A stretch of DNA of 64,000 nucleotides from Pigmentiphaga sp. NML030171 (GTDB lineage: Bacteria > Pseudomonadota > Gammaproteobacteria > Burkholderiales > Burkholderiaceae_B), in contig NZ_NINX01000032.1 of the NCBI RefSeq assembly GCF_002188635.1, positions 1 through 64,000 on the forward strand. Direction: 5' to 3'. Below the pieces are notes generated by a model, which ran no database searches, was not told the origin of the DNA, and worked only from the letters and a program-made list of their open reading frames with translations. This document shows, one piece after another, positions 25,925-39,904 of the stretch; the stretch's first letter is position 1, and every line of letters begins with the position of its first letter. The position numbers and the translations under genes are program-made.

Positions 25925-28141
25925 TCAGAACGTGATGTTGGCGGCCAGCCAGAACGTGCGGCCCGGCTGGATGGTGCCCCGGGTCGATTGCGCGGAATGG
26001 ATGTACTCGTTCAGGTACACCGTCTCGCCGGCGCCGTTCACGTAGGACTTGAACTTCATGAAGTCCTTGTCCAGCAAGTTGTAGACCGTGCCGGTCAGGG
26101 TCACGTTCTTCGAGACCTTGTAGGACCCGCCCAGGTGCAGCAGCGAGTAGGCCTTCAGGTCGCCCACCTGCTGTTGGGCCAGGAGGTTGTCGCCGGTGAG
26201 CGCGGCCGGATCGCCGTCGAAGCGCCGGCTCTTGCCGCGGAACTCGGCGCGCAGCCACATGGCGAACTTGTCGGTGGCCTGCCAGCGTAGGTTGGCGTTG
26301 GCCATGTGCTTGGGCGTGTCGGCCAGCTTGCCGCCGTAGACGCCGCCGTTCTTCACTTCGCTGTCGGTGAAGGTGTAGTTCAGCCCCAGCGTCCAGCGTG
26401 GCGCCAGCGGCACGCGGGTGCCCAGCTCCAGGCCGCGCGTGGTGGCCTGCTCCAGGTTGACCTGCTGGCCGAACTCGGCCTGGGTGGGCAGCGCGCCGAT
26501 CGAGATGCAGCCCGGCTGGTTGGGGTTGGCCGCGTAGTCGCAGTTCGGGATGCCCTTGGCCGCGGCGGAGATCTTGTCCTTGAAGCGGTTGTGGAACAGC
26601 GTCGCATTGGCGGTCAGGCCGGCCAAGTTGTCGTAGTTGACGCCGAATTCCGTGCTGGTGCTGACCTCGGGCTTGAGGTTGGGATTGCCGATGGTGAGCG
26701 TGCGGCCCTGGCCGCTGATGCCGTTGATGCCGTCGTGCAGCTGGTTCAGGCGAGGCGTGCGGTAGCCGCGGCTGACGCCGCCCTTGACCGTCCAGTTGGG
26801 CGTGGTGTTCCAGACCAGGTAGCCGCGCGGGCTGAAATGGCCGCCGAAGGCATCGTGGTGGTCGTAGCGCACGCCGGTGGTCAGGGCAAGATCTTCGCGC
26901 AGGCGCCATTCGTCCTCGGCGAACAGCGACTTGGTGGTCTGCTTGTAGCGCTGGGTGGCCAGGCTGTCCGTCATCTCGGCATCCCAGTACTGGCCGCCCA
27001 GGGTCAGCATGTGCGAGTCGCCGATGGCCTTGACCAGCTTGGTGTCGAGCACGACGTTGGTGGTTTCCAGCTTGCGGGGCGCGCCCGGCACCAGCACCGC
27101 CGCGAGCGGCGAATTGGCGGCGATGTTGGGCACCGTGCGGCCCAGCGTCTCGGTGTTGTTGACCATCAGGCTCGATTGCAGCGTGCCGAACTCGAACCGG
27201 CTGGTGTGGCCGACGGCCAACTGGTCGCGGTTGAAGCGCAGGTCGCGGCTGTAGCCGTTGTAGGTGTTGGTGGACGGGTCGTCCAGCGTGCCGAGCTGGC
27301 TTTCGTCGTTGTTGTACCACTGGCGCGAACGGTCGACATCCAGCCAGAAATCATGCTGCTTGTTCGGCGTCAGCGTGAGCTTGGCTCCGGCCGTGTAGAT
27401 GCGCGATTCCACCGGCGCCGGTCCGCGCTTGCTGATGCTGCCGGTACCCTCGGGCAGGTCGATGTCGGTCGCGCCGCGGTTGAAGATGCCGCCGCGCACG
27501 GCCAGGCCCAGCATGTCAGGCACCAGCGGGCCGCTTACGTAGAAATTCGCGTTGGAGGTGTCGCCGAAGTCGCTGTTCTGCGGGATGCCCTTGTCGAAAG
27601 TGATCGAGCCGCCCCAGGCCGTGGCGACCTTCTTGGTGATGATGTTGACCACCCCGCCCATGGCGTCCGAGCCGTAGAGCGTGGACATGGGCCCGCGGAT
27701 GACTTCGATGCGCTCGATGGCCGAGAGCGGCGGCATGAAGCTGGTGCTGGTCTCGCCGAAGCCGTTTGGCGTGACGTCGCCGGCGGCGTTCTGGCGCCGG
27801 CCGTCGATCAGGATCAGCGTGTACTCGCTGGGCAGGCCGCGGATGCTGATGTTCAGGCCGCCGGTCTTGCCGGTGTTGCCGCGCACGTCCACCCCTTCGA
27901 CCTCGCTCAGGGCTTCCGCCAGGTTGTTGTAGCGCTTCTCCTGCAGGGCCTCCTGTCCGATCACCGTGATGCTGGCGGGGGCGTTCTTGATTTCCTGCTC
28001 GTAGCCGGTCGCCGTCACGACGATGGGCGCGAGTTCGGTCGTGGCTTCCTGCGCCAGGACCTTGCCGGAGGCGAGCGCGGCAAGGACGGCAAGATGGGAC
28101 GTGGACAGCAGGAAAGGAATGCCCCGGGCGGCTAAAGCCAT
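25925..28141 (-). CDS. TonB-dependent outer-membrane siderophore receptor
   Basis: A 738-residue receptor. It has a signal peptide ending near GKVLAQ, a plug domain (LAPIVVTATGYEQEIKNAPA, GLNISIRGLPSEYTLILIDG, IERIEVIRGPMSTLYGSDAM, GGVVNIITKK) and a 22-strand barrel that ends in aromatic FWLAANITF. Plug features resemble FepA-like catecholate receptors. Start 28141 is chosen for the signal peptide; the very long open frame upstream is non-coding. A Fur-box-like site lies ~105-120 bases upstream, so iron repression is likely. The ligand is unknown. Confidence 0.93.
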   Translation of the reverse strand: MALAARGIPFLLSTSHLAVLAALASGKVLAQEATTELAPIVVTATGYEQEIKNAPASITVIGQEALQEKRYNNLAEALSEVEGVDVRGNTGKTGGLNISIRGLPSEYTLILIDGRRQNAAGDVTPNGFGETSTSFMPPLSAIERIEVIRGPMSTLYGSDAMGGVVNIITKKVATAWGGSITFDKGIPQNSDFGDTSNANFYVSGPLVPDMLGLAVRGGIFNRGATDIDLPEGTGSISKRGPAPVESRIYTAGAKLTLTPNKQHDFWLDVDRSRQWYNNDESQLGTLDDPSTNTYNGYSRDLRFNRDQLAVGHTSRFEFGTLQSSLMVNNTETLGRTVPNIAANSPLAAVLVPGAPRKLETTNVVLDTKLVKAIGDSHMLTLGGQYWDAEMTDSLATQRYKQTTKSLFAEDEWRLREDLALTTGVRYDHHDAFGGHFSPRGYLVWNTTPNWTVKGGVSRGYRTPRLNQLHDGINGISGQGRTLTIGNPNLKPEVSTSTEFGVNYDNLAGLTANATLFHNRFKDKISAAAKGIPNCDYAANPNQPGCISIGALPTQAEFGQQVNLEQATTRGLELGTRVPLAPRWTLGLNYTFTDSEVKNGGVYGGKLADTPKHMANANLRWQATDKFAMWLRAEFRGKSRRFDGDPAALTGDNLLAQQQVGDLKAYSLLHLGGSYKVSKNVTLTGTVYNLLDKDFMKFKSYVNGAGETVYLNEYIHSAQSTRGTIQPGRTFWLAANITF

Positions 28142-28243
28142 TCTTGAAGTTCTCCAGGTGGATGGGGGGAATCCGCGCGGGCGCCGCAGAACGCCTCGGG
28201 CGAACCTGACAAAAAGCTGACTTACATAAAGCTGAACGGCACG

Positions 28244-28262
28244 AATAATAATCATTCTTATC
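28244..28262 (-). promoter_or_regulatory. Fur-box-like iron operator
   Basis: AATAATAATCATTCTTATC on the plus strand contains the ATAATCATT core of the 19-bp Fur consensus and repeats of the A/T hexamer, in an AT-rich island within GC-rich DNA. It lies between the divergent TonB receptor and nrtA genes, nearer the receptor, and most likely serves the receptor. Confidence 0.6.
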
Positions 28263-28403
28263 ATCATTTGTCGAATCCGGGTCCGCTCGCCTCGTTTCCG
28301 GGCACGTCTTTGGTGCATTGCACAAGATTGGGGTGTGCACTTGGCGCCATCCGCGGGTTTTCCGGGCATACGGCCGATGGCATGGCTATTGCTTGATGGA
28401 TGT

Positions 28404-28455
28404 GCCGGCCAATGCGGGCCGGTAGACAACTCAGCGGTAGGAACAACGGCGTTCC
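28404..28455 (+). ncRNA. ANTAR-target leader RNA upstream of nrtA (two hexaloop hairpins)
   Basis: Hairpin 1: stem CCGGCC (28405-28410) / GGCCGG (28417-28422) with loop AATGCG. Hairpin 2: stem GGAAC (28440-28444) / GTTCC (28451-28455) with loop AACGGC. Both loops have six bases with A at position 1 and G at position 4, the signature recognised by ANTAR antiterminators; the hairpins are 17 bases apart. The 3' arm of hairpin 2 overlaps the 5' arm of the terminator at 28449, so binding of NasT to the two hairpins would prevent termination. The rest of the 372-base gap between the receptor and nrtA holds the Fur-like site and no gene. Confidence 0.85.
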
Positions 28456-28499
28456 GCGGCGACCAGGCACGGCCTTGTTCGCGCGGGACGCTTTTTTTT
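28449..28499 (+). terminator. Intrinsic terminator in the nrtA leader (attenuator)
   Basis: Arms GCGTTCCGCG (28449-28458) and CGCGGGACGC (28482-28491) pair over 10 bp with one G-T wobble and are followed directly by eight T residues (28492-28499). The terminator ends only 14 bases before the nrtA start codon, so it must be antiterminated for expression of nrtA and its followers. Confidence 0.88.
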
Positions 28500-28513
28500 G
28501 CCTGGAGCGCCGG

Positions 28514-29791
28514 ATGACACAGACCCCCTCGCACGATTCTTCGCCTGCAGCCGCCCCCGATGGGCAACGGCGCAGGCTGCTGACAGCCGGCGCCGCCACG
28601 GGCCTCATGAGCCTGGTCGATCCGCTGGTGCGCGCCGGCGCCTGGGCGGCGGGCTCGGACGCGCCCGAAAAGGCCGAGGTCAAGATCGGTTTCATCCCGC
28701 TGACCGACTGCGCCTCGGTGGTGATGGCATCCACGCTCGGGCTGGACAAGAAGTACGGGGTGAAGATCACGCCGGTGAAGGAAGCGTCGTGGCCCGGCGT
28801 GCGGGACAAGCTGGTCAACGGCGAGCTGGACCTGGCCCACGTGCTGTACGGCCTGGTCTACGGCGTGCAGCTGGGCATAGGCGGCCCGCGCAAGGACATG
28901 GCGGTGCTGATGAACCTGAACAACAACGGCCAGGCCATCACTCTTTCCGGCAAGCTCAAGGACAAGGGCGTGCGCGACGGCGCCACGCTGGCCAAGCTGA
29001 TGAAGAGCGAAAAGGCCGAGTACACCTTCGCGCAGACCTTCCCGACCGGCACGCACGCGATGTGGATCTATTACTGGCTGGCCGCCCATGGCATCAATCC
29101 CATGCGCGACGCCAAGGTGATCACCGTGCCGCCGCCGCAGATGGTGGCGAACATGCGGGTCGGCAACATGGACGGTTTCTGCGTGGGCGAGCCCTGGAAC
29201 GCGCGGGCCATCATCGACAGGATAGGCTTCACGGCCACCACCACCCAGGGCATCTGGACCGACCATCCCGAAAAGGTCCTGGGCACGACCGCGGAGTTCG
29301 TGCAGCGCTATCCGAACACCGCGCGCGCCGTGACGGCGGCGGTGCTGGAGGCGGGCAGGTTCATCGACGCCTCGGCCTCCAACCGCCGCAAGACGGCCGA
29401 GACCATCGCCGCCAAGTCGTATGTCAACACCGACATGGACGTGATCCTGGACCGCATGCTGGGGCGCTACTCGGACGGCCTGGGCAAGACCTGGGACGAC
29501 CCCGACGCGATGAAATTCTTCAACGACGGCGCCGCCAACTTCCCCTACCTGTCGGACGGCATGTGGTTCCTGACCCAGCATAAGCGCTGGGGCCTGCTCA
29601 AGAGCCATCCCGACTATCTCGCGACGGCGCGGCAGGTCAATCGCATCGACGTCTACAAGCAGGCCGCGAGCGCGGCCGGGGTCTCGCTGCCCAAGTCGGA
29701 GATGCGTTCGTCCAAGCTCGTCGACGGCGTCGTCTGGGACGGTAAGAATCCCGCCGCCTATGCCGACGGCTTCAAGATCAACGCGGCCTGA
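28514..29791 (+). CDS. nrtA: Nitrate ABC transporter substrate-binding protein
   Basis: A 425-residue exported NrtA/SsuA-like protein. A twin-arginine-like signal (QRRRLLTAGAATGLMSLVD) precedes the binding domain that starts VKIGFIPLTDCASVVMAS. Conserved segments include FPTGTHAMWIYYWLAAHGIN, PPPQMVANMRVGNMDGFCVG and HPEKVLGTT. It delivers nitrate (or nitrite) to NrtB/NrtD. GGAG at 28504-28507 is the ribosome site. It is controlled by the ANTAR leader just upstream. It is clearly related to the nasS product at 32133, which lacks the signal peptide. Confidence 0.94.
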   Translation: MTQTPSHDSSPAAAPDGQRRRLLTAGAATGLMSLVDPLVRAGAWAAGSDAPEKAEVKIGFIPLTDCASVVMASTLGLDKKYGVKITPVKEASWPGVRDKLVNGELDLAHVLYGLVYGVQLGIGGPRKDMAVLMNLNNNGQAITLSGKLKDKGVRDGATLAKLMKSEKAEYTFAQTFPTGTHAMWIYYWLAAHGINPMRDAKVITVPPPQMVANMRVGNMDGFCVGEPWNARAIIDRIGFTATTTQGIWTDHPEKVLGTTAEFVQRYPNTARAVTAAVLEAGRFIDASASNRRKTAETIAAKSYVNTDMDVILDRMLGRYSDGLGKTWDDPDAMKFFNDGAANFPYLSDGMWFLTQHKRWGLLKSHPDYLATARQVNRIDVYKQAASAAGVSLPKSEMRSSKLVDGVVWDGKNPAAYADGFKINAA

Positions 29792-29813
29792 GCGCCGCCC
29801 CGGGAGCCCCGCC

Positions 29814-30734
29814 ATGACCGCCACGGCCCGTACCCTTTCCCCCGGCCCCGCCGCCGCTCCGCCGGTTGCCGAAGTCATCGACCTGCATGCGGCCGCCTCG
29901 TCCGTGCCAACCCCGGCCGCGCCGTCCCGCCCGCCCCTGCTCGCCCGCGTCGACTGGCGGGGCGTCTGGGAAACCCTCGTCAAGACGGTGGCGGGCCCCT
30001 GCCTGGGCTTCGCGCTGCTGATCCTGGCCTGGCAACTGGTGTCCAACGCCATCCCCGAGATTCCCACCCCGGCCGTGACGGGCAAGGCGGCGCTGGCGCT
30101 GTTCTCCGACCCCTTCTACGACAACGGGCCCAACGACCAGGGCATAGGCTGGAACCTGTTGTCGTCGCTGCGGCGCGTGGCCATCGGCTTCGGCCTGGCG
30201 GCGCTGGTCGGCATCCCGGCCGGCTTCGTCATCGGCCGCTTCGCCGCGGTCAGCGCGGTGGTCTCGCCCCTGATCAGCCTGCTGCGCCCGGTCTCGCCGC
30301 TGGCGTGGCTGCCGCTGGGCCTGCTGCTGTTCAAGGCGGCCAACCTGGCCGCCATCTGGGCCATCTTCATCTGCTCCATCTGGCCGATGATCATCAACAC
30401 CGCGGTCGGGGTGACGCGCGTGCCGCAGGATTACATGAACGTGGCGCGGGTGCTGAAGCTGTCCGAATGGAAGGTCATGACGCGCGTGCTGTTTCCCGCC
30501 GTGCTGCCCTACATGCTGACGGGGGTGAGGCTGTCCATCAGCACGGCCTGGCTGGTGATCGTCGCCGCGGAGATGCTGACCGGCGGCGTGGGCATCGGCT
30601 TCTGGCTGTGGGACGAATGGAACAACCTCAAGGTCGAGCACATCGTCATCGCCATCTTCGTGATCGGCATCGTCGGGCTGGTGCTGGAAGTCCTGCTGAC
30701 GCAACTGGTCAAGCGCTTCACCTACGCCGACTGA
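29814..30734 (+). CDS. nrtB: Nitrate ABC transporter permease
   Basis: A 306-residue inner-membrane permease with about six helices. The ABC-permease EAA loop region reads VPQDYMNVARVLKLSEWKVM then LFPAVLPYMLTGVRLSISTA. The N-terminal ~50 residues are a proline/alanine-rich cytoplasmic extension. ATG 29814 lies 22 bases after nrtA. The end VEHIVIAIFVIGIVGLVLE is typical of NrtB. Confidence 0.93.
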   Translation: MTATARTLSPGPAAAPPVAEVIDLHAAASSVPTPAAPSRPPLLARVDWRGVWETLVKTVAGPCLGFALLILAWQLVSNAIPEIPTPAVTGKAALALFSDPFYDNGPNDQGIGWNLLSSLRRVAIGFGLAALVGIPAGFVIGRFAAVSAVVSPLISLLRPVSPLAWLPLGLLLFKAANLAAIWAIFICSIWPMIINTAVGVTRVPQDYMNVARVLKLSEWKVMTRVLFPAVLPYMLTGVRLSISTAWLVIVAAEMLTGGVGIGFWLWDEWNNLKVEHIVIAIFVIGIVGLVLEVLLTQLVKRFTYAD

Positions 30735-30752
30735 CACGAACAAGGAATCGCC

Positions 30753-31553
30753 ATGGACAAGTTCCTCAGCATCGAAAACGTGGGCCAGGTCTTCAAGACC
30801 CGCAAGGGCAGCTTCGTGGCCCTGCGCGACATCGACCTGACCGTCGCCAAGGGCGAGTTCATCTCGCTGATCGGCCATTCGGGATGCGGCAAGTCGACGC
30901 TGCTCAATCTCGTGGCGGGCCTGACGCGCCCGACCTCCGGCGCGCTGATCTGCGCGGGACGCGAAATCGATGGCCCGGGCCCCGAGCGCGCGGTGGTGTT
31001 CCAGAACCACTCGCTGCTGCCCTGGCTGAGTTGCTACAAGAACATCCACCTGGGCGTGGAACGGGTGTTCGGCGCCACCGAGAGCAAGGCGCGGCTGCGC
31101 GAGCGTACGCTGGCCGCGCTGCAACTGGTAGGCCTGGCCCATGCCGAACACAAGCTGCCGCACGAGATCTCGGGCGGCATGAAGCAGCGCGTGGGCATCG
31201 CCCGCGCGCTGGCGATCGAACCCGACGTGCTGCTGATGGACGAGCCATTCGGCGCGCTGGACGCGCTGACCCGCGCGCACCCGCAGGACGAGCTGCTGGA
31301 GATCGTGGCCAAGACGGGCAGCACGGTGATCATGGTCACCCACGACGTGGACGAGGCCGTGCTGCTGTCGGACCGCATCGTGATGCTGACCAACGGCCCG
31401 GCCGCCACCATAGGCGAGATCCTGGACGTGCGCCTGCCCCGGCCGCGCAGCCGGGTCGAACTGGCGGACGACGAGCACTACCATGCGTGCCGCACGGCCG
31501 TCATCGACTTCCTTTACCGCAAGCAAAGCCACCCCGCGCGCGAGGCGGCCTGA
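30753..31553 (+). CDS. nrtD: Nitrate ABC transporter ATP-binding protein
   Basis: A 266-residue ABC ATPase. Walker A is [11 protein letters not shown]; the Q-loop is in [14 protein letters not shown], signature [20 protein letters not shown], Walker [17 protein letters not shown], and the H-loop [10 protein letters not shown]. It energises nitrate import with NrtB. It follows nrtB by 18 bases. It lacks the C-terminal NrtA-like domain of cyanobacterial NrtC, so it is NrtD-like. Confidence 0.94.
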
Positions 31554-31563
31554 CCGTCTTCCC

Positions 31564-32142
31564 ATGCCTCGAGTCCTGCTGGTCAACGACACTGACAAGC
31601 CCATCGCCGAACTGCGCGAGGCCTTGCAGCGGGCGGGCTACGAGATCCTGGCCGACGTCGCGCATGCCCGCGCGCTGCTGCACGCCGTCGAGACCCAGCG
31701 CCCGGACGTGATCCTGATCGATACCGAATCGCCCACCCGCGACACGCTGGAACAACTGGCGGTCATGAACGCCTCGGCGCCTCGGCCGGTGGTCATGTTC
31801 TCGGACGCCGCCGACCAGTCCGTCATCCGGGCCGCGGTGCGCGCGGGTGTCACGACCTACGTGGTCGACGGCATGGCGCCCGGGAAGCTCGTTCCCATCC
31901 TCGAGGTGGCCTGTGCCCGCTTCGACGAGGAAGACAAGCTGAGGCGGCGCCTGGCCGAGGTCGAGCAACAGTTGGCCGACCGCAAGGACATCGACCGCGC
32001 CAAGGGCTGGCTGATGGACCGGTACGGGCTGGGCGAGTCCGAGGCATTCGAACTGCTGCGCGGCCAGGCCATGAAACAGGGCGTCAGGCTGGGCGACGTC
32101 GCGCGGCAGTTGCTGTCGCGGTCGGAGCCGCCATGCCCATGA
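31564..32142 (+). CDS. nasT: NasT, ANTAR-domain transcription antiterminator
   Basis: A 192-residue response regulator-like protein. The receiver domain (VLLVNDTDKPIAELREAL, RPDVILIDTESP with D53 at the usual acceptor place) is followed by a coiled coil and a C-terminal ANTAR RNA-binding domain (DIDRAKGWLMDRYGLGESEA, FELLRGQAMKQGVRLGDVAR). In known NasST systems, NasS holds NasT inactive until nitrate binds NasS; free NasT then binds paired hexaloop hairpins in leader RNAs. Two such leaders are in this window. It overlaps nasS by 10 bases. Confidence 0.94.
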   Translation: MPRVLLVNDTDKPIAELREALQRAGYEILADVAHARALLHAVETQRPDVILIDTESPTRDTLEQLAVMNASAPRPVVMFSDAADQSVIRAAVRAGVTTYVVDGMAPGKLVPILEVACARFDEEDKLRRRLAEVEQQLADRKDIDRAKGWLMDRYGLGESEAFELLRGQAMKQGVRLGDVARQLLSRSEPPCP

Positions 32143-33317
32143 ACGGAGATACCCCGATGCCCTCCTCTCCCCCGGCGCCGCAGGCGGGCCGCGTGATCGC
32201 GGGGTCCGATGCGCCCGAAAAACCCCAGTTGCGCGTGGGCTTCATCGCGCTGACCGATTGCGCGCCGCTGGTCATCGCGGTGGCGCGTGGCTACGACCGC
32301 AAGTACGGGCTGGAGATCGTCCTGCAACGGCAGCCTTCGTGGGCGGCGGTGCGCGACAGGTTGCTGTCGGGCGACCTGGATGCCTCGCATGCGCTGTATG
32401 GACTGGGATACGGCATCCAGCTGGGGTTGGGCGGACCGCAGCGCGACATGGCCATGCTGATGTCGCTGAACCAGGGCGGCCAGGCCATCACGCTGTCGCG
32501 CGCGCTGGCCGCCCGGGCGGCCAGCGGCGCGGCGCTGGCCCGCGTCATCCACGGGTCGCCCGATCGCCTGACCTTCGCCCACACCTTTCCGACCGGCTCC
32601 CACGCCATGCTGCTGTACTACTGGCTGGCCGCGCACGGCATCCATCCGCTGCATGACGTACGCAGTACCGTCATCCCGCCACCCCAGATGGCCGAGGCGC
32701 TGCGGCGCGGCGACGTGGACGGCTATTGCGTGGGAGAACCCTGGAACGCGCTGGCGCAGAGCGAAGGCAAGGGGCTTACCGTCGCGCTGACGTCCGAGGT
32801 CTGGCCCAACCACCCCGAGAAGGTGCTGGCCTGCACGCGCGACTTCGCCGATCGCCATCCGAACACGGCGCGGGCGCTGATCATGGCCTTGCTGGAAGCC
32901 TGCCGCTACCTGGACGTCCCCGCCCACAGGGAAGAGGCGGCCTCCTGGCTGGCGCTGCCCGATTTCGTGGACGCGCCGCGCGACGTGATCGCCGCGCGCC
33001 TGCTGCCGGAGAAGGCCGCGGACGGCAGCGCGCCCGGCATACGCTTCTTCGCCGACGGCGAGGCCAACTATCCGTATCTGTCGGACGGCATGTGGATGGC
33101 CACGCAATACCGGCGATGGGGCATGCTGCGCGAGGATCCTGACTATCTGCGCATCGCGCAGTCCATCAACCGGCTGGACCTGTACCGCGAGGCGGCCGCG
33201 CAGCTGGGCGTGGCGGTACCCGCGTCCGCCATGCGTTCCAGCCGGCTCATGGATGGCCGGACCTGGGACGGCGGCCATGCCGCGGGCTACGCGCGCGGCT
33301 TCGACATCCGGGCCTGA
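32133..33317 (+). CDS. nasS: NasS, cytoplasmic nitrate/nitrite sensor
   Basis: A 394-residue NrtA homologue without a signal peptide: the N-terminus is short and hydrophilic, and the binding domain begins LRVGFIALTDCAPLVIAVAR. It mirrors the nrtA product through FPTGSHAMLLYYWLAAHGIH, PPPQMAEALRRGDVDGYCVG and HPEKVLACT. This absence of export plus overlap with nasT fits NasS, which sequesters NasT in the cytoplasm when nitrate is absent. The start could be 32133, 32139 or 32157. Confidence 0.92.
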   Translation: MPMNGDTPMPSSPPAPQAGRVIAGSDAPEKPQLRVGFIALTDCAPLVIAVARGYDRKYGLEIVLQRQPSWAAVRDRLLSGDLDASHALYGLGYGIQLGLGGPQRDMAMLMSLNQGGQAITLSRALAARAASGAALARVIHGSPDRLTFAHTFPTGSHAMLLYYWLAAHGIHPLHDVRSTVIPPPQMAEALRRGDVDGYCVGEPWNALAQSEGKGLTVALTSEVWPNHPEKVLACTRDFADRHPNTARALIMALLEACRYLDVPAHREEAASWLALPDFVDAPRDVIAARLLPEKAADGSAPGIRFFADGEANYPYLSDGMWMATQYRRWGMLREDPDYLRIAQSINRLDLYREAAAQLGVAVPASAMRSSRLMDGRTWDGGHAAGYARGFDIRA

Positions 33318-33635
33318 AGGCGCCGCGCGCACGCGGAAACGGGCTCGGCCGCCCCGCCGGGGTGCGCCGTGGGCACGGAGCGCACAAGGCCGGTGCATGC
33401 GGCCCGGGCGAACCCCGCCTTCCGTCCCGGTCCAGCCCCGCCCATGCAGGGCGCCACCGGGTTTCCCGCCCATCCGGCACGCCCCTTGCTTAATCCAGGA
33501 TGCGGCCGCTCGCGCGGCACGCATTTCCGGGCGCCCGCACCCTGGGCGGCCCGGCCCCGGACAACGGCGTCCCCTCGCAGCCCTGCTGCGGCGGGACGCC
33601 GTTGTCGCTTCCGGAACAGTCTGATCGAGTCGAAC
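33318..33635 (+). promoter_or_regulatory. Leader region of nirB with a second ANTAR-type hairpin and long stem
   Basis: This 318-base gap has no gene. Near its 3' end are a strong hairpin at 33527-33554 (CCGGG-CGCCC / GGGCG-CCCGG with one bulge, loop GCACCCT) and a short hairpin GGAC-AACGGC-GTCC (33559-33572) whose hexaloop is identical to hairpin 2 of the nrtA leader. That hairpin overlaps a perfect 13-bp stem ACAACGGCGTCCC (33561-33573) / GGGACGCCGTTGT (33593-33605), which is mutually exclusive with it. No run of T follows the stem, so if it terminates it is atypical. The first hairpin does not show a clear A1/G4 hexaloop. NasT control of nirB is a strong inference. Confidence 0.65.
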
Positions 33636-36083
33636 ATGATGAACAGATCGAAACTGGTCGTGGTGGGCAACGGCATGGCGGGCATACGCACGCTGGAAGA
33701 GCTGCTGACGCTGGCGCCCGACCGCTACGACATCACGGTCTTCGGCGCCGAGCCGCACCCGAACTACAACCGCATCTTGTTGTCGCCGGTCCTGGCCGGT
33801 GAGCAGGACTTCCAGGACATCGTGCTCAATCCCCTGTCCTGGTACGAGGAACACGGCATCGACTTGCGCACCGGCACGCCCGTCGCGCGCATCGACAGGC
33901 GCCGCCGCGTGGTGGTGGCCGCCGACGGCACCGAGGCGCCCTATGACCGCCTGCTGCTGGCCACCGGATCCAATCCCTTCATCCTGCCGATACCGGGCAG
34001 GGACCTGGACGGCGTCATCACCTACCGCGACATCCAGGACACGCAGAAGATGATCGCGGCGGCCCGCACCCAGCGCCGCGCGGTCGTCATCGGCGGCGGC
34101 CTGCTGGGCCTGGAGGCCGCCAACGGGCTGAAGCTGCGCGGCATGGACGTGAGCGTGGTGCACCTGGGCGACTGGCTGCTGGAGCGCCAGCTCGACCGCA
34201 CCGCCGGCAAGATGCTGGAGGCCTCGCTGGCCGATCGCGGGCTGGACTTCCTGCTGGGCCGCTCGACCAGCGAGATCCTGGGCGACGACGCCGGCCGCGT
34301 GCGCGGCGTGCGCTTCAAGGACGGCTCGGAGATCGAGACCGACCTGGTGGTGATGGCCGTGGGCATCCGGCCCAACACCGCCCTGGCCGAGGCGGCCGGC
34401 CTGCACTGCCGCAACGGCGTCGTCGTCAACGACGTGCTGCAGACCTTCGATCCGCGCATCTACGCCGTGGGCGAATGCGTGAACCACCGCGGCACGGCGT
34501 ATGGCCTGGTGGCGCCGCTGTTCGAGATGGCCAAGGTGGCGGCCAATCACCTGGCCGAGCTGGGCTATGGCGCGTACAAGGGCTCGGTGCTGTCGACCAA
34601 GCTCAAGGTCACGGGCATAGACCTGTTCTCGGCCGGCGACTTCACCGGCGGCGCCGACACCGAGGACATCGTGCTGTCCGATCCGGCCGGCGGCGTCTAC
34701 AAGCGGCTGATCATCAAGGACGGCAAGCTGGTCGGCGCCTGCCTGTACGGCGACACCGTGGACGGCGCGTGGTACTTCAAGCTGCTGCGCGAGGGCCGTG
34801 CCATCGGCGAACTGCGCGACCGGCTGATGTTCGGCGAATCGAGCGTGGGCGACGCCGGCGTGCAGGGGCAGAGCCGCGCGGCGGCCATGCAGGACGCCGA
34901 CGAGGTGTGCGGCTGCAACGGCGTCTGCAAGGGCACCATCGTGCGCGCCATCCAGGACCAGGGCCTGTTCACCGTGGACGACGTCAAGAAGCACACCAAG
35001 GCCGCGAGTTCCTGCGGCTCGTGCACCGGCCTGGTGGAACAGATCCTGATGAACACGCTGGGTTCCAATTTCCAGGAAGCGCCCAAGACCAAGGCGGTAT
35101 GCGGCTGTACCGACCACAGCCACGCCGCGCTGCGCCAGGCCATACGCGAGCACCGGCTGCTGAGCCACGCCCAGGTCTACGAGTTCATGGACTGGCGCAC
35201 CCCCAACGGCTGCAGCACCTGCCGGCCCGCGATCAACTACTACCTGATCTCGACCTGGCCCCACGAGGCGGTGGACGATCCGCAAAGCCGCTTCATCAAC
35301 GAGCGCGCGCACGCCAACATCCAGAAGGACGGCACGTTCTCGGTGGTGCCGCAGATGAAGGGCGGCGTGACCAATCCCGACGAACTGCGCCGCATCGCCG
35401 ACGTGGCCGACAAATACGCCATCCCCATGGTCAAGGTCACGGGCGGGCAGCGCATCGACCTGCTGGGCGTGAAGAAGGAAGACCTGGTGTCCGTCTGGCG
35501 CGACCTGGGCATGAACTCCGGCCATGCCTACGGCAAGTCCATCCGCACCGTGAAGACCTGCGTGGGCATGGAGTTCTGCCGCTTCGGCACGCAGGACAGC
35601 ACGCGGATGGGCATCGAGCTGGAGACCATGCTGGCCAACATGTGGAGCCCGCACAAGGTCAAGCTGGCGGTGTCGGGCTGCCCGCGCAACTGCGCCGAAT
35701 CGGGCATCAAGGACGTGGGCGTGATCGCCGTCGACAGCGGCTGGGAGATCTACGTGGGCGGCAACGGCGGCATCAAGACCGAGGTGGCGCAGTTCCTGGC
35801 CAAGGTGCGGACGCCGGAAGAGGTCAAGGAATATGCCGGCGCCTTCCTGCAGCTGTATCGCGAGGAAGCCTGGTACCTGGACCGGACCGTGCACTACATC
35901 GAGCGCGTGGGCCTGGACTACGTCAAGCGCCGGATCGTCGAGGACGCCGCCGGCCGCCGCGCGCTGCACGAACGCCTGCTGCATGCCTTGCAGGGCCTGC
36001 GCGACCCCTGGGCCGAACGGGTGGACGGCAAGGCCGCCCGCGAATACATCCCCCTGAAACTGGTCTCGGAGGAAATCGCATGA
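33636..36083 (+). CDS. nirB: Assimilatory nitrite reductase [NAD(P)H] large subunit
   Basis: An 815-residue cytoplasmic enzyme that reduces nitrite to ammonium with six electrons. In order: an FAD/NAD reductase domain (KLVVVGNGMAGIRTLEELL, RAVVIGGGLLGLEAANGLKL), two BFD-like [2Fe-2S] segments (CGCNGVCKGTIVRA with SSCGSCTGL; CGCTDHSH with GCSTCRPA), a ferredoxin-like half-domain, and the sirohaem/[4Fe-4S] domain with TCVGMEFCRFG and GCPRNCAESG supplying four cysteines. The start at 33636 follows the leader by 30 bases. The stop overlaps nirD. Confidence 0.96.
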   Translation: MMNRSKLVVVGNGMAGIRTLEELLTLAPDRYDITVFGAEPHPNYNRILLSPVLAGEQDFQDIVLNPLSWYEEHGIDLRTGTPVARIDRRRRVVVAADGTEAPYDRLLLATGSNPFILPIPGRDLDGVITYRDIQDTQKMIAAARTQRRAVVIGGGLLGLEAANGLKLRGMDVSVVHLGDWLLERQLDRTAGKMLEASLADRGLDFLLGRSTSEILGDDAGRVRGVRFKDGSEIETDLVVMAVGIRPNTALAEAAGLHCRNGVVVNDVLQTFDPRIYAVGECVNHRGTAYGLVAPLFEMAKVAANHLAELGYGAYKGSVLSTKLKVTGIDLFSAGDFTGGADTEDIVLSDPAGGVYKRLIIKDGKLVGACLYGDTVDGAWYFKLLREGRAIGELRDRLMFGESSVGDAGVQGQSRAAAMQDADEVCGCNGVCKGTIVRAIQDQGLFTVDDVKKHTKAASSCGSCTGLVEQILMNTLGSNFQEAPKTKAVCGCTDHSHAALRQAIREHRLLSHAQVYEFMDWRTPNGCSTCRPAINYYLISTWPHEAVDDPQSRFINERAHANIQKDGTFSVVPQMKGGVTNPDELRRIADVADKYAIPMVKVTGGQRIDLLGVKKEDLVSVWRDLGMNSGHAYGKSIRTVKTCVGMEFCRFGTQDSTRMGIELETMLANMWSPHKVKLAVSGCPRNCAESGIKDVGVIAVDSGWEIYVGGNGGIKTEVAQFLAKVRTPEEVKEYAGAFLQLYREEAWYLDRTVHYIERVGLDYVKRRIVEDAAGRRALHERLLHALQGLRDPWAERVDGKAAREYIPLKLVSEEIA

Positions 36084-36409
36084 TGAGCGCCCACGACGCA
36101 CACCCCTGGATACGCCTGTGCCGGGTCGACGACATCCCGCGCCTGGGCAGCCGCGTCGTCGAGCGCGCGGAGGGCAACCTGGCGGTGTTCCGCACCGCCC
36201 AGGACAAGGTCTTCGCGCTGCTGGACCGGTGTCCCCACAAGGCCGGGCCGCTGTCGCAAGGCATCGTGCACGGCGAATCGGTGACCTGCCCGCTGCACGG
36301 CTGGCAGCTCGGGCTGGAGGACGGCCGCGCCCGGGCGCCCGACGAGGGATGCGCGCGCCGCTTCCCCGTGCGCGTGGACGAAGGCGTGGTCTACCTGGGC
36401 CTGGACTGA
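36080..36409 (+). CDS. nirD: Nitrite reductase small subunit (Rieske-type)
   Basis: A 109-residue Rieske-fold protein with complete cluster ligands CPHKAGPLSQG and CPLHGWQLGLEDG. Some NirD proteins lack these residues; here both Cys-x-His pairs are present, so it may carry a [2Fe-2S] cluster. The ATG at 36080 overlaps the nirB stop (ATGATG). It works with NirB. Confidence 0.94.
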   Translation: MMSAHDAHPWIRLCRVDDIPRLGSRVVERAEGNLAVFRTAQDKVFALLDRCPHKAGPLSQGIVHGESVTCPLHGWQLGLEDGRARAPDEGCARRFPVRVDEGVVYLGLD

Positions 36410-36424
36410 AGGCGGGAGGACGTC

Positions 36425-39133
36425 ATGGGCGAGCCACGAACCACCGCGTCGACCTGCTGCTACTGCGGCGTGGGTTGCGGTGTCCTGATCGACAGCGAGG
36501 ATGGCCGCATCACGGGCGTGCGCGGCGATCCCGACCACCCCGCCAATGCCGGCAGGCTGTGCTCCAAGGGCCTGTCGCTGGCGCAGACCGCCCAAAGCGA
36601 TGCCGGCCGCGCGCTGCGCCCGGCGTGGCGGCCGCGGCGCGAAGCGCCGCTCGCGCCGGTGGACTGGGACACCGCGCTGGACCACGTGGCCGCCCGGCTG
36701 GCCGACGTCGTGCGCCGGCACGGCCCCGACGCGGTGGCCTTCTACGTGTCCGGGCAGTTGCTGACCGAGGACTACTACGTCTTCAACAAGCTGGCCAAGG
36801 GCCTGGTCGGCACCAACAACATCGACACCAATTCCCGCCTGTGCATGTCCAGCGCCGTGACCGGCTACAAGCTGTCGCTGGGCGCCGACGGACCGCCCAC
36901 CTGCTACGAGGACCTGGACCACGCGGACACGGTGCTGATCGCCGGCAGCAACATGGCCTACGCCCATCCGGTGCTGTACCGCCGGCTGGAAGCCGCGCGC
37001 GAGGCTCGGCCCGGCACGCGCTGGATCGTCGTGGACCCGCGGCGCACCGACACCGCGGCGATGGCGGACCTGCACCTGCCCATCCAGCCGGGTACCGACG
37101 TCGCGCTGTTCAACGGCATGCTGCACCACCTGATCTGGGAAGGCTGGCTGGATCCGGACCACATCGCCGGCAGTACCGAGGGCTTCGACGCCGTCAAGCG
37201 CATGGTGCGCGACACGCCCCCGTCGGTGGCCGCGGCGCTGTGCGGCATACGCGAGCGCGACCTGTGCCAGGCGGCCGAATGGTTCGCCCGCAGCCCCGCC
37301 ACGCTGTCGCTGTACTGCATGGGCCTGAACCAGTCCAGCCATGGCACGGACAAGAACCTGGCGCTGATCAACCTGCACCTGGCCACCGGCCAGATCGGCC
37401 GCGCCGGCGCCGGCCCCTTTTCGCTGACGGGCCAGCCCAACGCCATGGGCGGCCGCGAAGTGGGCGGCATGGCGACCATGCTGGCCGCCCACCGGGACAT
37501 CGCCAGCCAGACGGACCGCGCCGAGGTGGCCGCGTTCTGGGGCGTGGATGCCGTGTCCGACCGGCCGGGGCTGGCCGCCGTCGACATGTTCCAGGCCCTG
37601 GAGACCGGCAAGGTCAAGGCGATATGGATAGCCTGCACCAACCCCGCCCATTCCCTGCCGGATCTCGCGGCCGTGCGGCGCGCGCTGCGCCGGGCCGAGC
37701 TGGTGGTGGTGCAGGAAGCCTATGCCGACACCGACACGGTGGCCTACGCCGACGTATTGCTGCCCGCATCGAGCTGGGGCGAGAAGGACGGCACCGTCAC
37801 CAACTCGGAACGCCGCATCTCGCGCGTGCGGCCCGCCGTGGCGCCGCCCGGCCAGGCGCGCGCCGACTGGCGCATCGTGGCCGAGGTCGGGCGGCGCATG
37901 CAGGCCCTGCTGCGTCCGGGCACGCCGGACCTGTTCCCCTACCGGACGCCGCGCGAGATATTCGACGAACACCGGGCGCTGACCCGCGGGCGCGACCTGG
38001 ACATCGGCGGACTGGACTACGAGTTGCTCGAGACACGCGGCCCCCAGCAATGGCCCTTCCCCGCCGGCCAGGCCACCGGCCTGGCGCGCCGCTACGCCGA
38101 CGGCCGCTACGCCACCGCATCCGGCCGCGCGCGCTTCCAGCCCGTGCCCTATCGCCCCGTGGCGGTGGCGACCAGCGCGCGCCATCCTTTCCACCTGACC
38201 ACGGGCCGGCTGCGCGACCAGTGGCACGGCATGAGCCGCACCGGCCGCATCGCCCAGGCCTTCTCGCACGCGCCGGACCCCACCCTGGACATGCACCCGG
38301 CCGACGCATCCCGGCGCGGGCTGGCCGACGGCGACCTGGTGCGCGTGGCCAGCCGCGACGGTGCCATGGTGCTGCCGCTGCGGCTGACGGAGGACGTGCC
38401 GCCCGGCAGTCTGTTCGCGGCCATGCACTGGAACGCGCAGTTCCTGAACAGCGGCGGCATCAACGAGGTCTGCAATGCGGCCGTGGACGACAAGTCCTTC
38501 CAGCCCGAGCTCAAGCACAGCGCGGTCCGGGTCGAGAAGGCGGAGCTGGGATGGCGGATCCGTGCGGCGATCGCGGCCACGGACCAGGAAGACACGCAAC
38601 GCCTGCGCGCCGCGCTGCGTCCCCTGCTGGCGCCCTGTGGCTACGCCGCGCTGTGCCTGCGCGGCGACGCCTCGCGCTCCGTGCTGACCCTGACCGCCGC
38701 GATGGCGGCTCCCGATGAAGCCTGGCTGGACGCGCTGGCCGTCGCGCTGGACATGGGCGCGAGCCCCGACGTCCTGGAATACCTCGACCGCGGCCAGGGC
38801 GTACGCAAATGCGCGCGCTGGGAGGCGGGACGGCTGCGCGCCTTCCTGCTGGCCGGCGACGCCGGCCATGCCGAACCGCTGATCGAACGCCTGCTGTCCG
38901 CCGAGCCGTGGAGCGGCTCGCGCCTGCGCGTCTTCACGCCCGAAGGCGGCGCCCCCGCGCGGGACCGCACGGTCTGCCAATGCAAGGGCGTGCCCGAATC
39001 GGCCATCGCCGCCGCCATCGCGCGCGGGGCCGACGTCGCGGCGCTGAAAGCCACCTTGGGGTGCGGGACCGTGTGCGGGTCCTGCGTTCCGGAACTGTCC
39101 CGCCTGTGCGGGGCCTCGCGGATGTCGGCATGA
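36425..39133 (+). CDS. nasA: Assimilatory nitrate reductase catalytic subunit
   Basis: A 902-residue molybdenum bis-MGD enzyme that reduces nitrate to nitrite. The N-terminal [4Fe-4S] site is TCCYCGVGCGVLID with the later LCSKG. The molybdopterin domain includes NNIDTNSRLCMSSAVTGYK, ADTVLIAGSNMAYAHPV and GKVKAIWIACTNPAHSLPD; the dinucleotide-binding domain has HLTTGRLRDQWHGMSRTG. The C-terminus has an extra BFD-like [2Fe-2S] module (CQCKGVPESAI and LGCGTVCGSCVPEL), probably an electron entry point. There is no Tat signal, so it is cytoplasmic and assimilatory. It is 15 bases after nirD. Confidence 0.96.
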   Translation: MGEPRTTASTCCYCGVGCGVLIDSEDGRITGVRGDPDHPANAGRLCSKGLSLAQTAQSDAGRALRPAWRPRREAPLAPVDWDTALDHVAARLADVVRRHGPDAVAFYVSGQLLTEDYYVFNKLAKGLVGTNNIDTNSRLCMSSAVTGYKLSLGADGPPTCYEDLDHADTVLIAGSNMAYAHPVLYRRLEAAREARPGTRWIVVDPRRTDTAAMADLHLPIQPGTDVALFNGMLHHLIWEGWLDPDHIAGSTEGFDAVKRMVRDTPPSVAAALCGIRERDLCQAAEWFARSPATLSLYCMGLNQSSHGTDKNLALINLHLATGQIGRAGAGPFSLTGQPNAMGGREVGGMATMLAAHRDIASQTDRAEVAAFWGVDAVSDRPGLAAVDMFQALETGKVKAIWIACTNPAHSLPDLAAVRRALRRAELVVVQEAYADTDTVAYADVLLPASSWGEKDGTVTNSERRISRVRPAVAPPGQARADWRIVAEVGRRMQALLRPGTPDLFPYRTPREIFDEHRALTRGRDLDIGGLDYELLETRGPQQWPFPAGQATGLARRYADGRYATASGRARFQPVPYRPVAVATSARHPFHLTTGRLRDQWHGMSRTGRIAQAFSHAPDPTLDMHPADASRRGLADGDLVRVASRDGAMVLPLRLTEDVPPGSLFAAMHWNAQFLNSGGINEVCNAAVDDKSFQPELKHSAVRVEKAELGWRIRAAIAATDQEDTQRLRAALRPLLAPCGYAALCLRGDASRSVLTLTAAMAAPDEAWLDALAVALDMGASPDVLEYLDRGQGVRKCARWEAGRLRAFLLAGDAGHAEPLIERLLSAEPWSGSRLRVFTPEGGAPARDRTVCQCKGVPESAIAAAIARGADVAALKATLGCGTVCGSCVPELSRLCGASRMSA

Positions 39134-39157: not shown

Positions 39158-39904
39158 ATGAAGCCAGGACGAGTGATTCTGATGGGCGCCGGCCCGGGCG
39201 ACCCGGACCTGCTGACACGCAAGGCGGTCCGCGCCCTGCTGTCGGCGGACGTGCTGCTGCTGGACGAACTGGTGCCGCCCGACATCGCCGAACTCGCTCC
39301 CCGGGCGCGGGTGCTGCGGGTGGGCAAGCGCGGCGGCTGCCGTTCCACGCCCCAGCCCTTCATCCAGCGGCTGATGCGCCGCTACGCGCTGCAAGGCAGG
39401 ACCGTGGTGCGCGTCAAGGGTGGCGAAGCCTTGATGTTCGGACGCGCGGGCGAAGAAATCGCCTTCCTGGAAGCCGCCGGCATCGAAGTGGAACTGATCA
39501 ATGGCATCAGCGCCGGCATGGCGGCCGCCGCGGCGCTGGGCATCTCGCTCACCCACCGGGATCACTGCCACGGGGTCAGCTTCGTCACCGCCCATACCCA
39601 GGACGGCGCGCAGCCGGACTGGCAGGCGCTGGCGCGCAGCCGCACCACGCTGGTCATCTACATGGGCATGCAGCGTATCGAGCAAGTGCAGGCCGGCCTG
39701 CTGGCGCACCTGCCCGCCTCCACCCCGGCCGCGGTGGTGCAGTGGGCCTCGACACCGCACGAAACAAGGCTGGCGACCCGGCTGGGCCAGCTGGCGGACG
39801 ATGCGCGCGGGGCGGGGCTGGGCAGCCCCGCGATCATCCTCGTGGGAGACGCGATCGGCCTGGCCCGCGCGCATGCCGCGCCGGCCATGCGCCACAGCGC
39901 CTGA
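39158..39904 (+). CDS. cobA: Uroporphyrinogen-III C-methyltransferase (sirohaem synthesis)
   Basis: A 248-residue SAM enzyme that makes precorrin-2, the precursor of the sirohaem needed by NirB. It begins RVILMGAGPGDPDLLTRKAV and has DVLLLDELVPPDI, VVRVKGGEALMFGRAGEEI and GISAGMAAAAALGISLTHRD, all characteristic of SUMT. It lacks the CysG dehydrogenase/chelatase half. It lies 24 bases after nasA and appears to be the last gene of the nir/nas operon. Confidence 0.94.
   Translation: MKPGRVILMGAGPGDPDLLTRKAVRALLSADVLLLDELVPPDIAELAPRARVLRVGKRGGCRSTPQPFIQRLMRRYALQGRTVVRVKGGEALMFGRAGEEIAFLEAAGIEVELINGISAGMAAAAALGISLTHRDHCHGVSFVTAHTQDGAQPDWQALARSRTTLVIYMGMQRIEQVQAGLLAHLPASTPAAVVQWASTPHETRLATRLGQLADDARGAGLGSPAIILVGDAIGLARAHAAPAMRHSA

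Follow-up and report, generated by a model that had tools for sequence, protein, structure and literature searches.

The locus described here raises the question of how a nitrate-assimilation operon in Pigmentiphaga sp. NML030171 is switched on, and whether the regulator that would act on its leader RNA is itself produced under the control of that leader. The window, by which we mean the whole stretch of 64,000 nucleotides analysed, carries the following genes, whose identities were assigned by profile matches:

28514 to 29791, + strand: nrtA, nitrate ABC transporter binding protein (Pfam NMT1_2, 1e-103), with GGAG 6 nt before its ATG
29814 to 30734, + strand: nrtB, nitrate ABC transporter permease (TIGR01183, above cut-off)
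30753 to 31553, + strand: nrtC, nitrate ABC transporter ATPase (TIGR01184, above cut-off)
31564 to 32142, + strand: nasT, receiver-ANTAR antiterminator (PF03861, 2.9e-19), its ATG about 10 nt after nrtC
32133 to 33317, + strand: nasS, NrtA-like nitrate sensor (Pfam NMT1_2), overlapping nasT by 10 nt
33636 to 36083, + strand: nirB, nitrite reductase large subunit (TIGR02374)
36083 to 36409, + strand: nirD, nitrite reductase small subunit (TIGR02378)
36425 to 39133, + strand: nasA-type assimilatory nitrate reductase (Pfam Molybdopterin, 1.2e-72)
39158 to 39904, + strand: cobA, uroporphyrinogen-III methyltransferase, providing siroheme for NirB (PRK06136/TIGR01469, above cut-off)

The name nasA is given from context, since the nearest NCBIfam models score below their cut-offs. 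Intergenic gaps from nrtA through cobA are at most 25 nt, except for 318 nt between nasS and nirB (computed with nrtB and nasT starts at 29817 and 31561, the actual ATGs being at 29814 and 31564). The receiver-ANTAR protein NasT is adjoined by the NrtA-like NasS, as in a NasS-NasT system, and because NasT is the sole ANTAR protein of the genome it is hardly in doubt as the partner, if any ANTAR protein acts here.

The sequence immediately upstream of nrtA can be folded into three elements:

28403 to 28424, + strand: P1 hairpin, eight pairs (28403-28410 with 28417-28424) and a hexaloop AAUGCG (28411-28416) with A at position 1 and G at position 4 (A1/G4)
28440 to 28455, + strand: P2 hairpin, the putative antiterminator, five pairs (28440-28444 with 28451-28455) and an A1/G4 hexaloop AACGGC (28445-28450)
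28449 to 28499, + strand: intrinsic terminator overlapping P2, a 10-bp stem (GCGUUCCGCG, 28449-28458, paired with CGCGGGACGC, 28482-28491) followed by U8 (28492-28499)

An initial annotation of this DNA had noted both hexaloop hairpins, the sharing of bases between the second hairpin and a 10-bp terminator stem followed by eight T, and the presence of sensor, antiterminator and RNA target in one locus with nasT and nasS downstream; all of these were recovered on recomputation and profile searching. The spacing of 17 bases that it gave holds if P1 is counted as 6 bp, but P1 has eight pairs and the unpaired linker is then 15 nt, which is above the range of the eut leaders (5-12 nt) and inside the 2-25 nt accepted for ANTAR-target RNAs (PMC8164766). 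The 3′ strand of P2 and the last two bases of its loop (together 28449-28455) also belong to the terminator, so the two structures are mutually exclusive, and with predicted energies of -14.7 (P1), -4.9 (P2) and -27.5 kcal/mol (terminator), P2 would lose against the terminator unless something held it. Twin A1/G4 hexaloop hairpins with an overlapping terminator occur once in the window when both strands are searched, and the same search of 40 dinucleotide shuffles of the window gave one match in total. The folding stability of the whole 131-nt stretch is modest on its own (z = -2.3; 4 of 200 shuffles equally stable). Standard searches do not list the element: no Rfam family reaches its gathering score in the nrtA leader, with weak sub-threshold matches and no ANTAR-like family at E up to 10, and a terminator scan limited to loops of 3-8 nt omits this terminator, whose 23-nt loop was detected with a purpose-written search.

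These structures are conserved in the family. NasT (E up to 1e-25) is present in 59 of 246 family genomes, from which we extracted 45 nrtA-type leaders, three of them (L114, L115, L137) preceding a gene that is 34-51% identical to the NrtA of the window. The 14 NasT-positive genomes that gave none are 11 of genus g23 with no nrtA match in the fetched stretch (L124-L133, L166), G038 (L144), truncated by the end of a contig, G009, and G098 (L172), without nrtA in the stretch. In all 45 leaders an A1/G4 P2 overlaps a terminator with a T-run of 4-10, and 44 have an A1/G4 P1, a count slightly flattered by our preference for A1/G4 candidates when placing P1; the P1 loop stands in register in the alignment of the leaders. 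The sole exception is P. humi (L006), whose P1 loop CAUUCC has neither A1 nor G4 and whose P2 and terminator are intact, and a 46th leader, from G009, has A1/G4 in both loops. Loss of the two loops in homologous leaders had been named beforehand as an outcome that would count against an ANTAR target; instead, nearly all leaders keep A1/G4 in both.

Both alternative folds covary, which supports the mutual exclusion of P2 and the terminator. In alignment A1, which holds 22 of the 45 leaders, 97.1% of cells are paired in the P1-plus-terminator fold, where 11 of 17 pairs show two-sided changes, and 95.1% in the P1-plus-P2 fold, where 8 of 13 do; none of 500 shuffles reached these two measures for either fold, and slid registers gave 39-52% and 25-57% paired, respectively. 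Taken singly in these 22 leaders, P1 has two-sided changes in 6 of 8 pairs, the terminator in 5 of 9 with 100% of cells paired, and P2 in 2 of 5 with 97.3% paired. Shuffling helix by helix with 41 distinct rows, the two-sided changes were matched in 13 (P1), 39 (P2) and 1 (terminator) of 2000 shuffles, and the number of P2 pair types in 1725 of 2000, no better than chance. The covariation is thus carried by P1 and the terminator, P2 being weak alone and supported mainly by its near-constant pairing. In addition, where the outermost terminator pair switches from G-C to A-U, base 5 of the P2 loop switches with it.

These data bear on whether the leader could instead be coding, either because nrtA is extended from an ATG that lies in frame within the P1 loop, at 28412, or because a leader peptide controls nrtA. 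The frame from 28400 is indeed open into nrtA (ORF 28400-29791), but the U-run is 6, 8 and 7 nt long in L002, L004 and L005 as compared with 8 in the window, so that the nrtA-extending frame is shifted in close relatives; the leader shows base-pair covariation instead, and nrtA has its own GGAG 6 nt before the ATG at 28514. We regard a coding function as scarcely credible.

A covariance-model search across related genomes, which the initial annotation had proposed as a check, ties the element to ANTAR proteins. Model R1 finds the nrtA leader in its own genome with 86.8 bits (E 2.7e-16; the next best match has E 0.2), and matches 69 of the 246 family genomes, 125 of which encode an ANTAR protein: there is a match in 68 of the 125 genomes with such a protein and in 1 of the 121 without (E 0.005), a Fisher p of 1.7e-24 that counts related genomes as independent. 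Twenty-two of the 69 R1-positive genomes had supplied training rows of the model. R1 is absent from 57 ANTAR-bearing genomes and from 13 of the 59 NasT-positive ones (12 in one genus); the family search ran with stricter filters, and in one of the 13 (G146/L137) the element is present by script. Among 66 ANTAR-bearing genomes without a NasT match, 22 have R1; several ANTAR frames in NasT-negative genomes, of about 430-480 residues, would fit NasR-like proteins.

The association with ANTAR proteins also helps to separate a regulated leader from a plain, unregulated terminator or attenuator whose hexaloops are incidental. Terminators ahead of operons do exist, and the leader has been read here from sequence; however, a terminator alone needs no P1, which is conserved and covaries, and the gene upstream of the leader, which encodes a TonB-dependent receptor (25925-28141, Pfam), reads on the - strand and so needs no terminator here. 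With the presence of the element tracking that of ANTAR proteins, we consider a plain terminator very improbable.

Two putative promoter elements precede the leader:

28302 to 28316, + strand: NtrC-like site GCACGTCTTTGGTGC, a palindrome that precedes the predicted start by about 95 nt
28378 to 28393, + strand: sigma54-type promoter TGGCATG-N4-TTGCT, matching 11 of 12 consensus positions

With the sigma54 consensus and a 12-nt offset to +1, the predicted RNA start is at 28404, and P1 would therefore form the 5′ end of the RNA and be the first part made. A sigma54-like site (at least 10 of 12 positions) is present in all 45 leaders, preceding the P1 loop by 19-22 nt in 43 of them and by 32 nt in two. 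The NtrC-like site, assigned by a consensus pattern, is weak evidence: the pattern is present in six of 11 leaders (the window, L002, L004, L005, L112 and L150) and absent from five (L006, L113, L136, L155 and L167). An AT-rich palindrome at 28240-28265, upstream of the divergent receptor gene, resembles a Fur box by eye.

Taken together, we propose that 28403-28499 is a NasT-dependent ANTAR attenuator gating nrtABC-nasTS(-nirBD-nasA-cobA) on nitrate, with NasT probably promoting its own synthesis, and we put the probability of this reading at about 0.88. Under nitrogen shortage, RNA polymerase carrying sigma54, probably together with NtrC, would start at about 28404 and make P1 first; the promoter-like sequence and its conservation are seen directly, the start site and NtrC being predicted. 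The anatomy, together with the literature on NasS-NasT and on ANTAR proteins, leads us to infer a termination step controlled by NasS and NasT. Without nitrate NasS would hold NasT, the RNA would adopt the terminator fold and transcription would end at U8, upstream of nrtA; with nitrate or nitrite NasS would free NasT, which would be recruited at P1 and stabilise P2, so that the terminator is blocked and the operon is read.

As such the leader belongs to a known kind and is a textbook case of NasT-type ANTAR attenuation. Recognition of A1/G4 in twin hairpins by ANTAR proteins is described in excerpts of PMC3369931 and PMC8934654, and dissociation of NasS-NasT by nitrate in Paracoccus in an excerpt of PMC3795266. 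The closest parallel is the NasS-NasT/nasA system of Paracoccus denitrificans, which in the excerpted accounts (PMC3795266, PMC5424462) likewise combines an ANTAR NasT, an NrtA-like NasS and leader hairpins before nitrate-assimilation genes, but there the element precedes nasA rather than nrtA, and nasTS lies upstream of the nasA leader rather than inside the attenuated operon. Mutation of the first hairpin of the Paracoccus nasA leader causes severe loss of activity and mutation of the second has little effect (excerpt of PMC5424462), results that do not fit neatly with the twin-hairpin model. The nasF leader of Klebsiella oxytoca, described in PMC3369931, is similar in its nitrate-responsive ANTAR antitermination and in an A1/G4 hexaloop beside a terminator, but NasR itself senses nitrate through a NIT domain whereas here NasS is separate. 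The eut leaders of Enterococcus faecalis, as excerpted from PMC3369931 and PMC8934654, share twin A1/G4 hairpins, a P2 exclusive with the terminator and several cassettes per locus, and differ in responding to ethanolamine and AdoCbl, in having EutW as partner of EutV, and in linkers of 5-12 nt as compared with 15 here. In the AmiC-AmiR system acting on amiEBCRS of Pseudomonas aeruginosa, a sensor that binds a small molecule likewise sequesters the ANTAR protein, although the signal is an amide and the structural genes are unrelated (PMC3795266, in part). None of the papers listed in searches of open-licence literature deals with the Pigmentiphaga operon or with leaders of this type in the family, and plasmids searched for distant DNA matches to the leader gave none; excerpts of PMC3369931 include Burkholderia among the ANTAR hits, and related leaders may already be listed in its supplementary tables. 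What is added here is a well-supported family-wide example of NasT-type attenuation at nrtA, comprising 45 leaders and alternative folds that covary, and, beyond the initial annotation, the sigma54-like promoter, the position of nasTS behind its own terminator, a foreign-type nasTS block and a cassette before nirB.

The family also shows how far P1 and P2 can stand apart. Counted with a 7-bp P1 and a 5-bp P2, the linkers of the 45 leaders range from 7 to 28 nt. None of the ten linkers of 17 nt or less has a fold of -4 kcal/mol or better, as compared with 31 of the 35 longer ones (see L134-L165), whose unpaired remainder has a median of 13 nt; the four exceptions belong to one genus (g3) and are 19-22 nt long. 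Pandoraea-type linkers span 50-53 nt, and in the three loci checked they include a hairpin with an energy near -21 kcal/mol. Because a 20-nt extension abolished antitermination by EutV (excerpt of PMC8934654), a helical spacer is a sensible reading of the long linkers, although 23 of the 35 are from one genus (g2), so there are fewer independent events than the counts suggest. That ANTAR proteins tolerate a long distance between P1 and P2 if a helix takes up the slack is a testable prediction.

Since nasT and nasS lie behind the terminator, NasT released by nitrate would raise the synthesis of both itself and its inhibitor, giving a positive loop bounded by NasS. Self-promotion is probable because nasTS stands behind the terminator, nasT begins about 10 nt after nrtC and no promoter-like + strand site lies just before it: a consensus scan of 28250-33700 found no sigma70-like site on the + strand, and between 28393 and 33475 there is one poor match to the sigma54 pattern, at 28636. 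In P. aeruginosa amiC and amiR follow the attenuated amiE leader, so that the regulator lies within the regulated operon, as here. An alternative is that NasT controls the leader but nasTS is transcribed from a separate promoter within nrtC, or receives enough leak, so that there is no meaningful positive feedback. Many promoters escape consensus scans, so a private nasT promoter is compatible with ours; nasTS transcript levels in Paracoccus are similar with nitrate or glutamate (excerpt of PMC5424462); and nasT usually lies outside the attenuated transcript, on the strand opposite nrtA in 36 of the 45 leaders and upstream on the same strand in three more. The short nrtC-nasT gap and the result of the scan nonetheless lead us to judge this alternative rather unlikely, and positive feedback, as suggested by gene order, likely. 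An antiterminator behind its own terminator makes memory or bistability in the nitrate response testable by comparison with sister genomes that have nasT outside.

In the remaining six leaders (window, L002, L004, L005, L006 and L112) nasT is downstream, inside the operon, and the gene order is nrtABC-nasTS-nirB followed by nirD-nasA-cobA wherever the retrieved sequence extends far enough (for L112 it ends at nirB). A seventh clade member, G009 (L003), has nrtBC-nasTS-nirBD-nasA-cobA at a contig start, and its nrtA (96.5% identical), with an intact A1/G4 leader, lies inside another contig with no nrtB behind it (L174, G009:C8). Because nrtA stands apart from nrtBC-nasTS, through either rearrangement or assembly error, G009 is not counted among loci with nasTS behind the leader. 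We had considered its R1 match to be a contig-edge nrtA leader, and rejected this since nrtA is inside the contig without nrtB behind. Pigmentiphaga G001 (L113) has retained the divergent arrangement and has an ANTAR leader of its own.

There are indications that the operon is a hybrid. The NasT of this clade shares 36-45% identity with NasT elsewhere in the family and 54-67% with that of other Burkholderiales and Xanthomonadales, and in trees the clade NasT and NirB fall apart from the family with support of 99/99 and 97/100 (the placement of two long branches, L125 NasT and L155 NirB, is uncertain). By contrast, nrtA, nrtB and nrtC share 79, 72 and 79% identity with their G001 counterparts, so that a native nrtABC appears to be joined to a foreign-type nasTS-nirBD-nasA-cobA, the assignment of nrtABC being made by identities. 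We tentatively suggest, as a scenario with somewhat less than an even chance of being correct, that the foreign-type block was inserted behind native nrtABC and its native leader; that the native leader came under the control of the foreign NasT, which shares about 42% identity with the NasT native to the family and was itself now caught behind that leader, so that an open-loop switch came to feed itself; and that the ANTAR leader belonging to the block was no longer needed and decayed. Comparable gene orders exist elsewhere, as Pandoraea and some other Burkholderiales have same-strand nasTS downstream of an ANTAR-led nirB operon.

The 318-nt gap before nirB contains a candidate for such a decayed leader:

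33475 to 33490, + strand: second sigma54-like site, CGGCACGCCCCTTGCT; the six other clade loci (L002-L006, L112) have a similar site at the corresponding position
33559 to 33606, + strand: cassette B, a P2-like GGAC AACGGC GUCC within a perfect 14-bp hairpin, with no U-run and no A1/G4 P1

As an ANTAR target cassette B is deficient, an A1/G4 P1 (of at least 4 bp) being absent from all seven clade loci and the U-run lost in six of them, and it matches R1 partially (15.5 bits, E 6.3). The nirB leader of P. humi keeps a U-run (GTTTTGTTTTT), and the six other clade loci share the U-less form. In 16 Pandoraea loci a related cassette precedes nirB and has both a U-run and a P1 (AAAGGC or AAAGAC, 5 bp, in 16 of 16). 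Cassette B of the window is most likely a decaying leader.

Several smaller observations concern these cassettes. The P2 and hairpin of cassette B are nearly unchanged and strongly conserved in six loci although apparently disarmed. P. humi (L006; 5709-5807 and 11011) shows the reverse of its relatives, with the odd P1 loop in its nrtA leader and the U-run retained in its nirB leader. G1/A4 P1 loops in the Pandoraea nirB leaders were dropped as candidates, an A1/G4 P1 standing nearer the start site. The strict U-less cassette B pattern occurs in 1 of 399 order genomes, the window's own, a count that says little because the sample has few genomes of the family and no other listed congener, and L042, which fits the pattern, is evidently absent from it; matches in Paraburkholderia to a pattern requiring 8 pairs, which misses cassette B, are chance coding sites. 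In three Burkholderia loci (L034 at 7927, L042 at 8010 and L046 at 8005) a similar cassette with a good A1/G4 P1 and the same GTTGTCG tail (5, 7 and 5 T in 12, respectively) precedes cobA-nasTS, and in these loci, too, NasT may therefore act on the mRNA that encodes it. Finally, R1 has further matches in other Pigmentiphaga genomes (three in G001 and two each in G004 and G005), perhaps reflecting a small NasT regulon.
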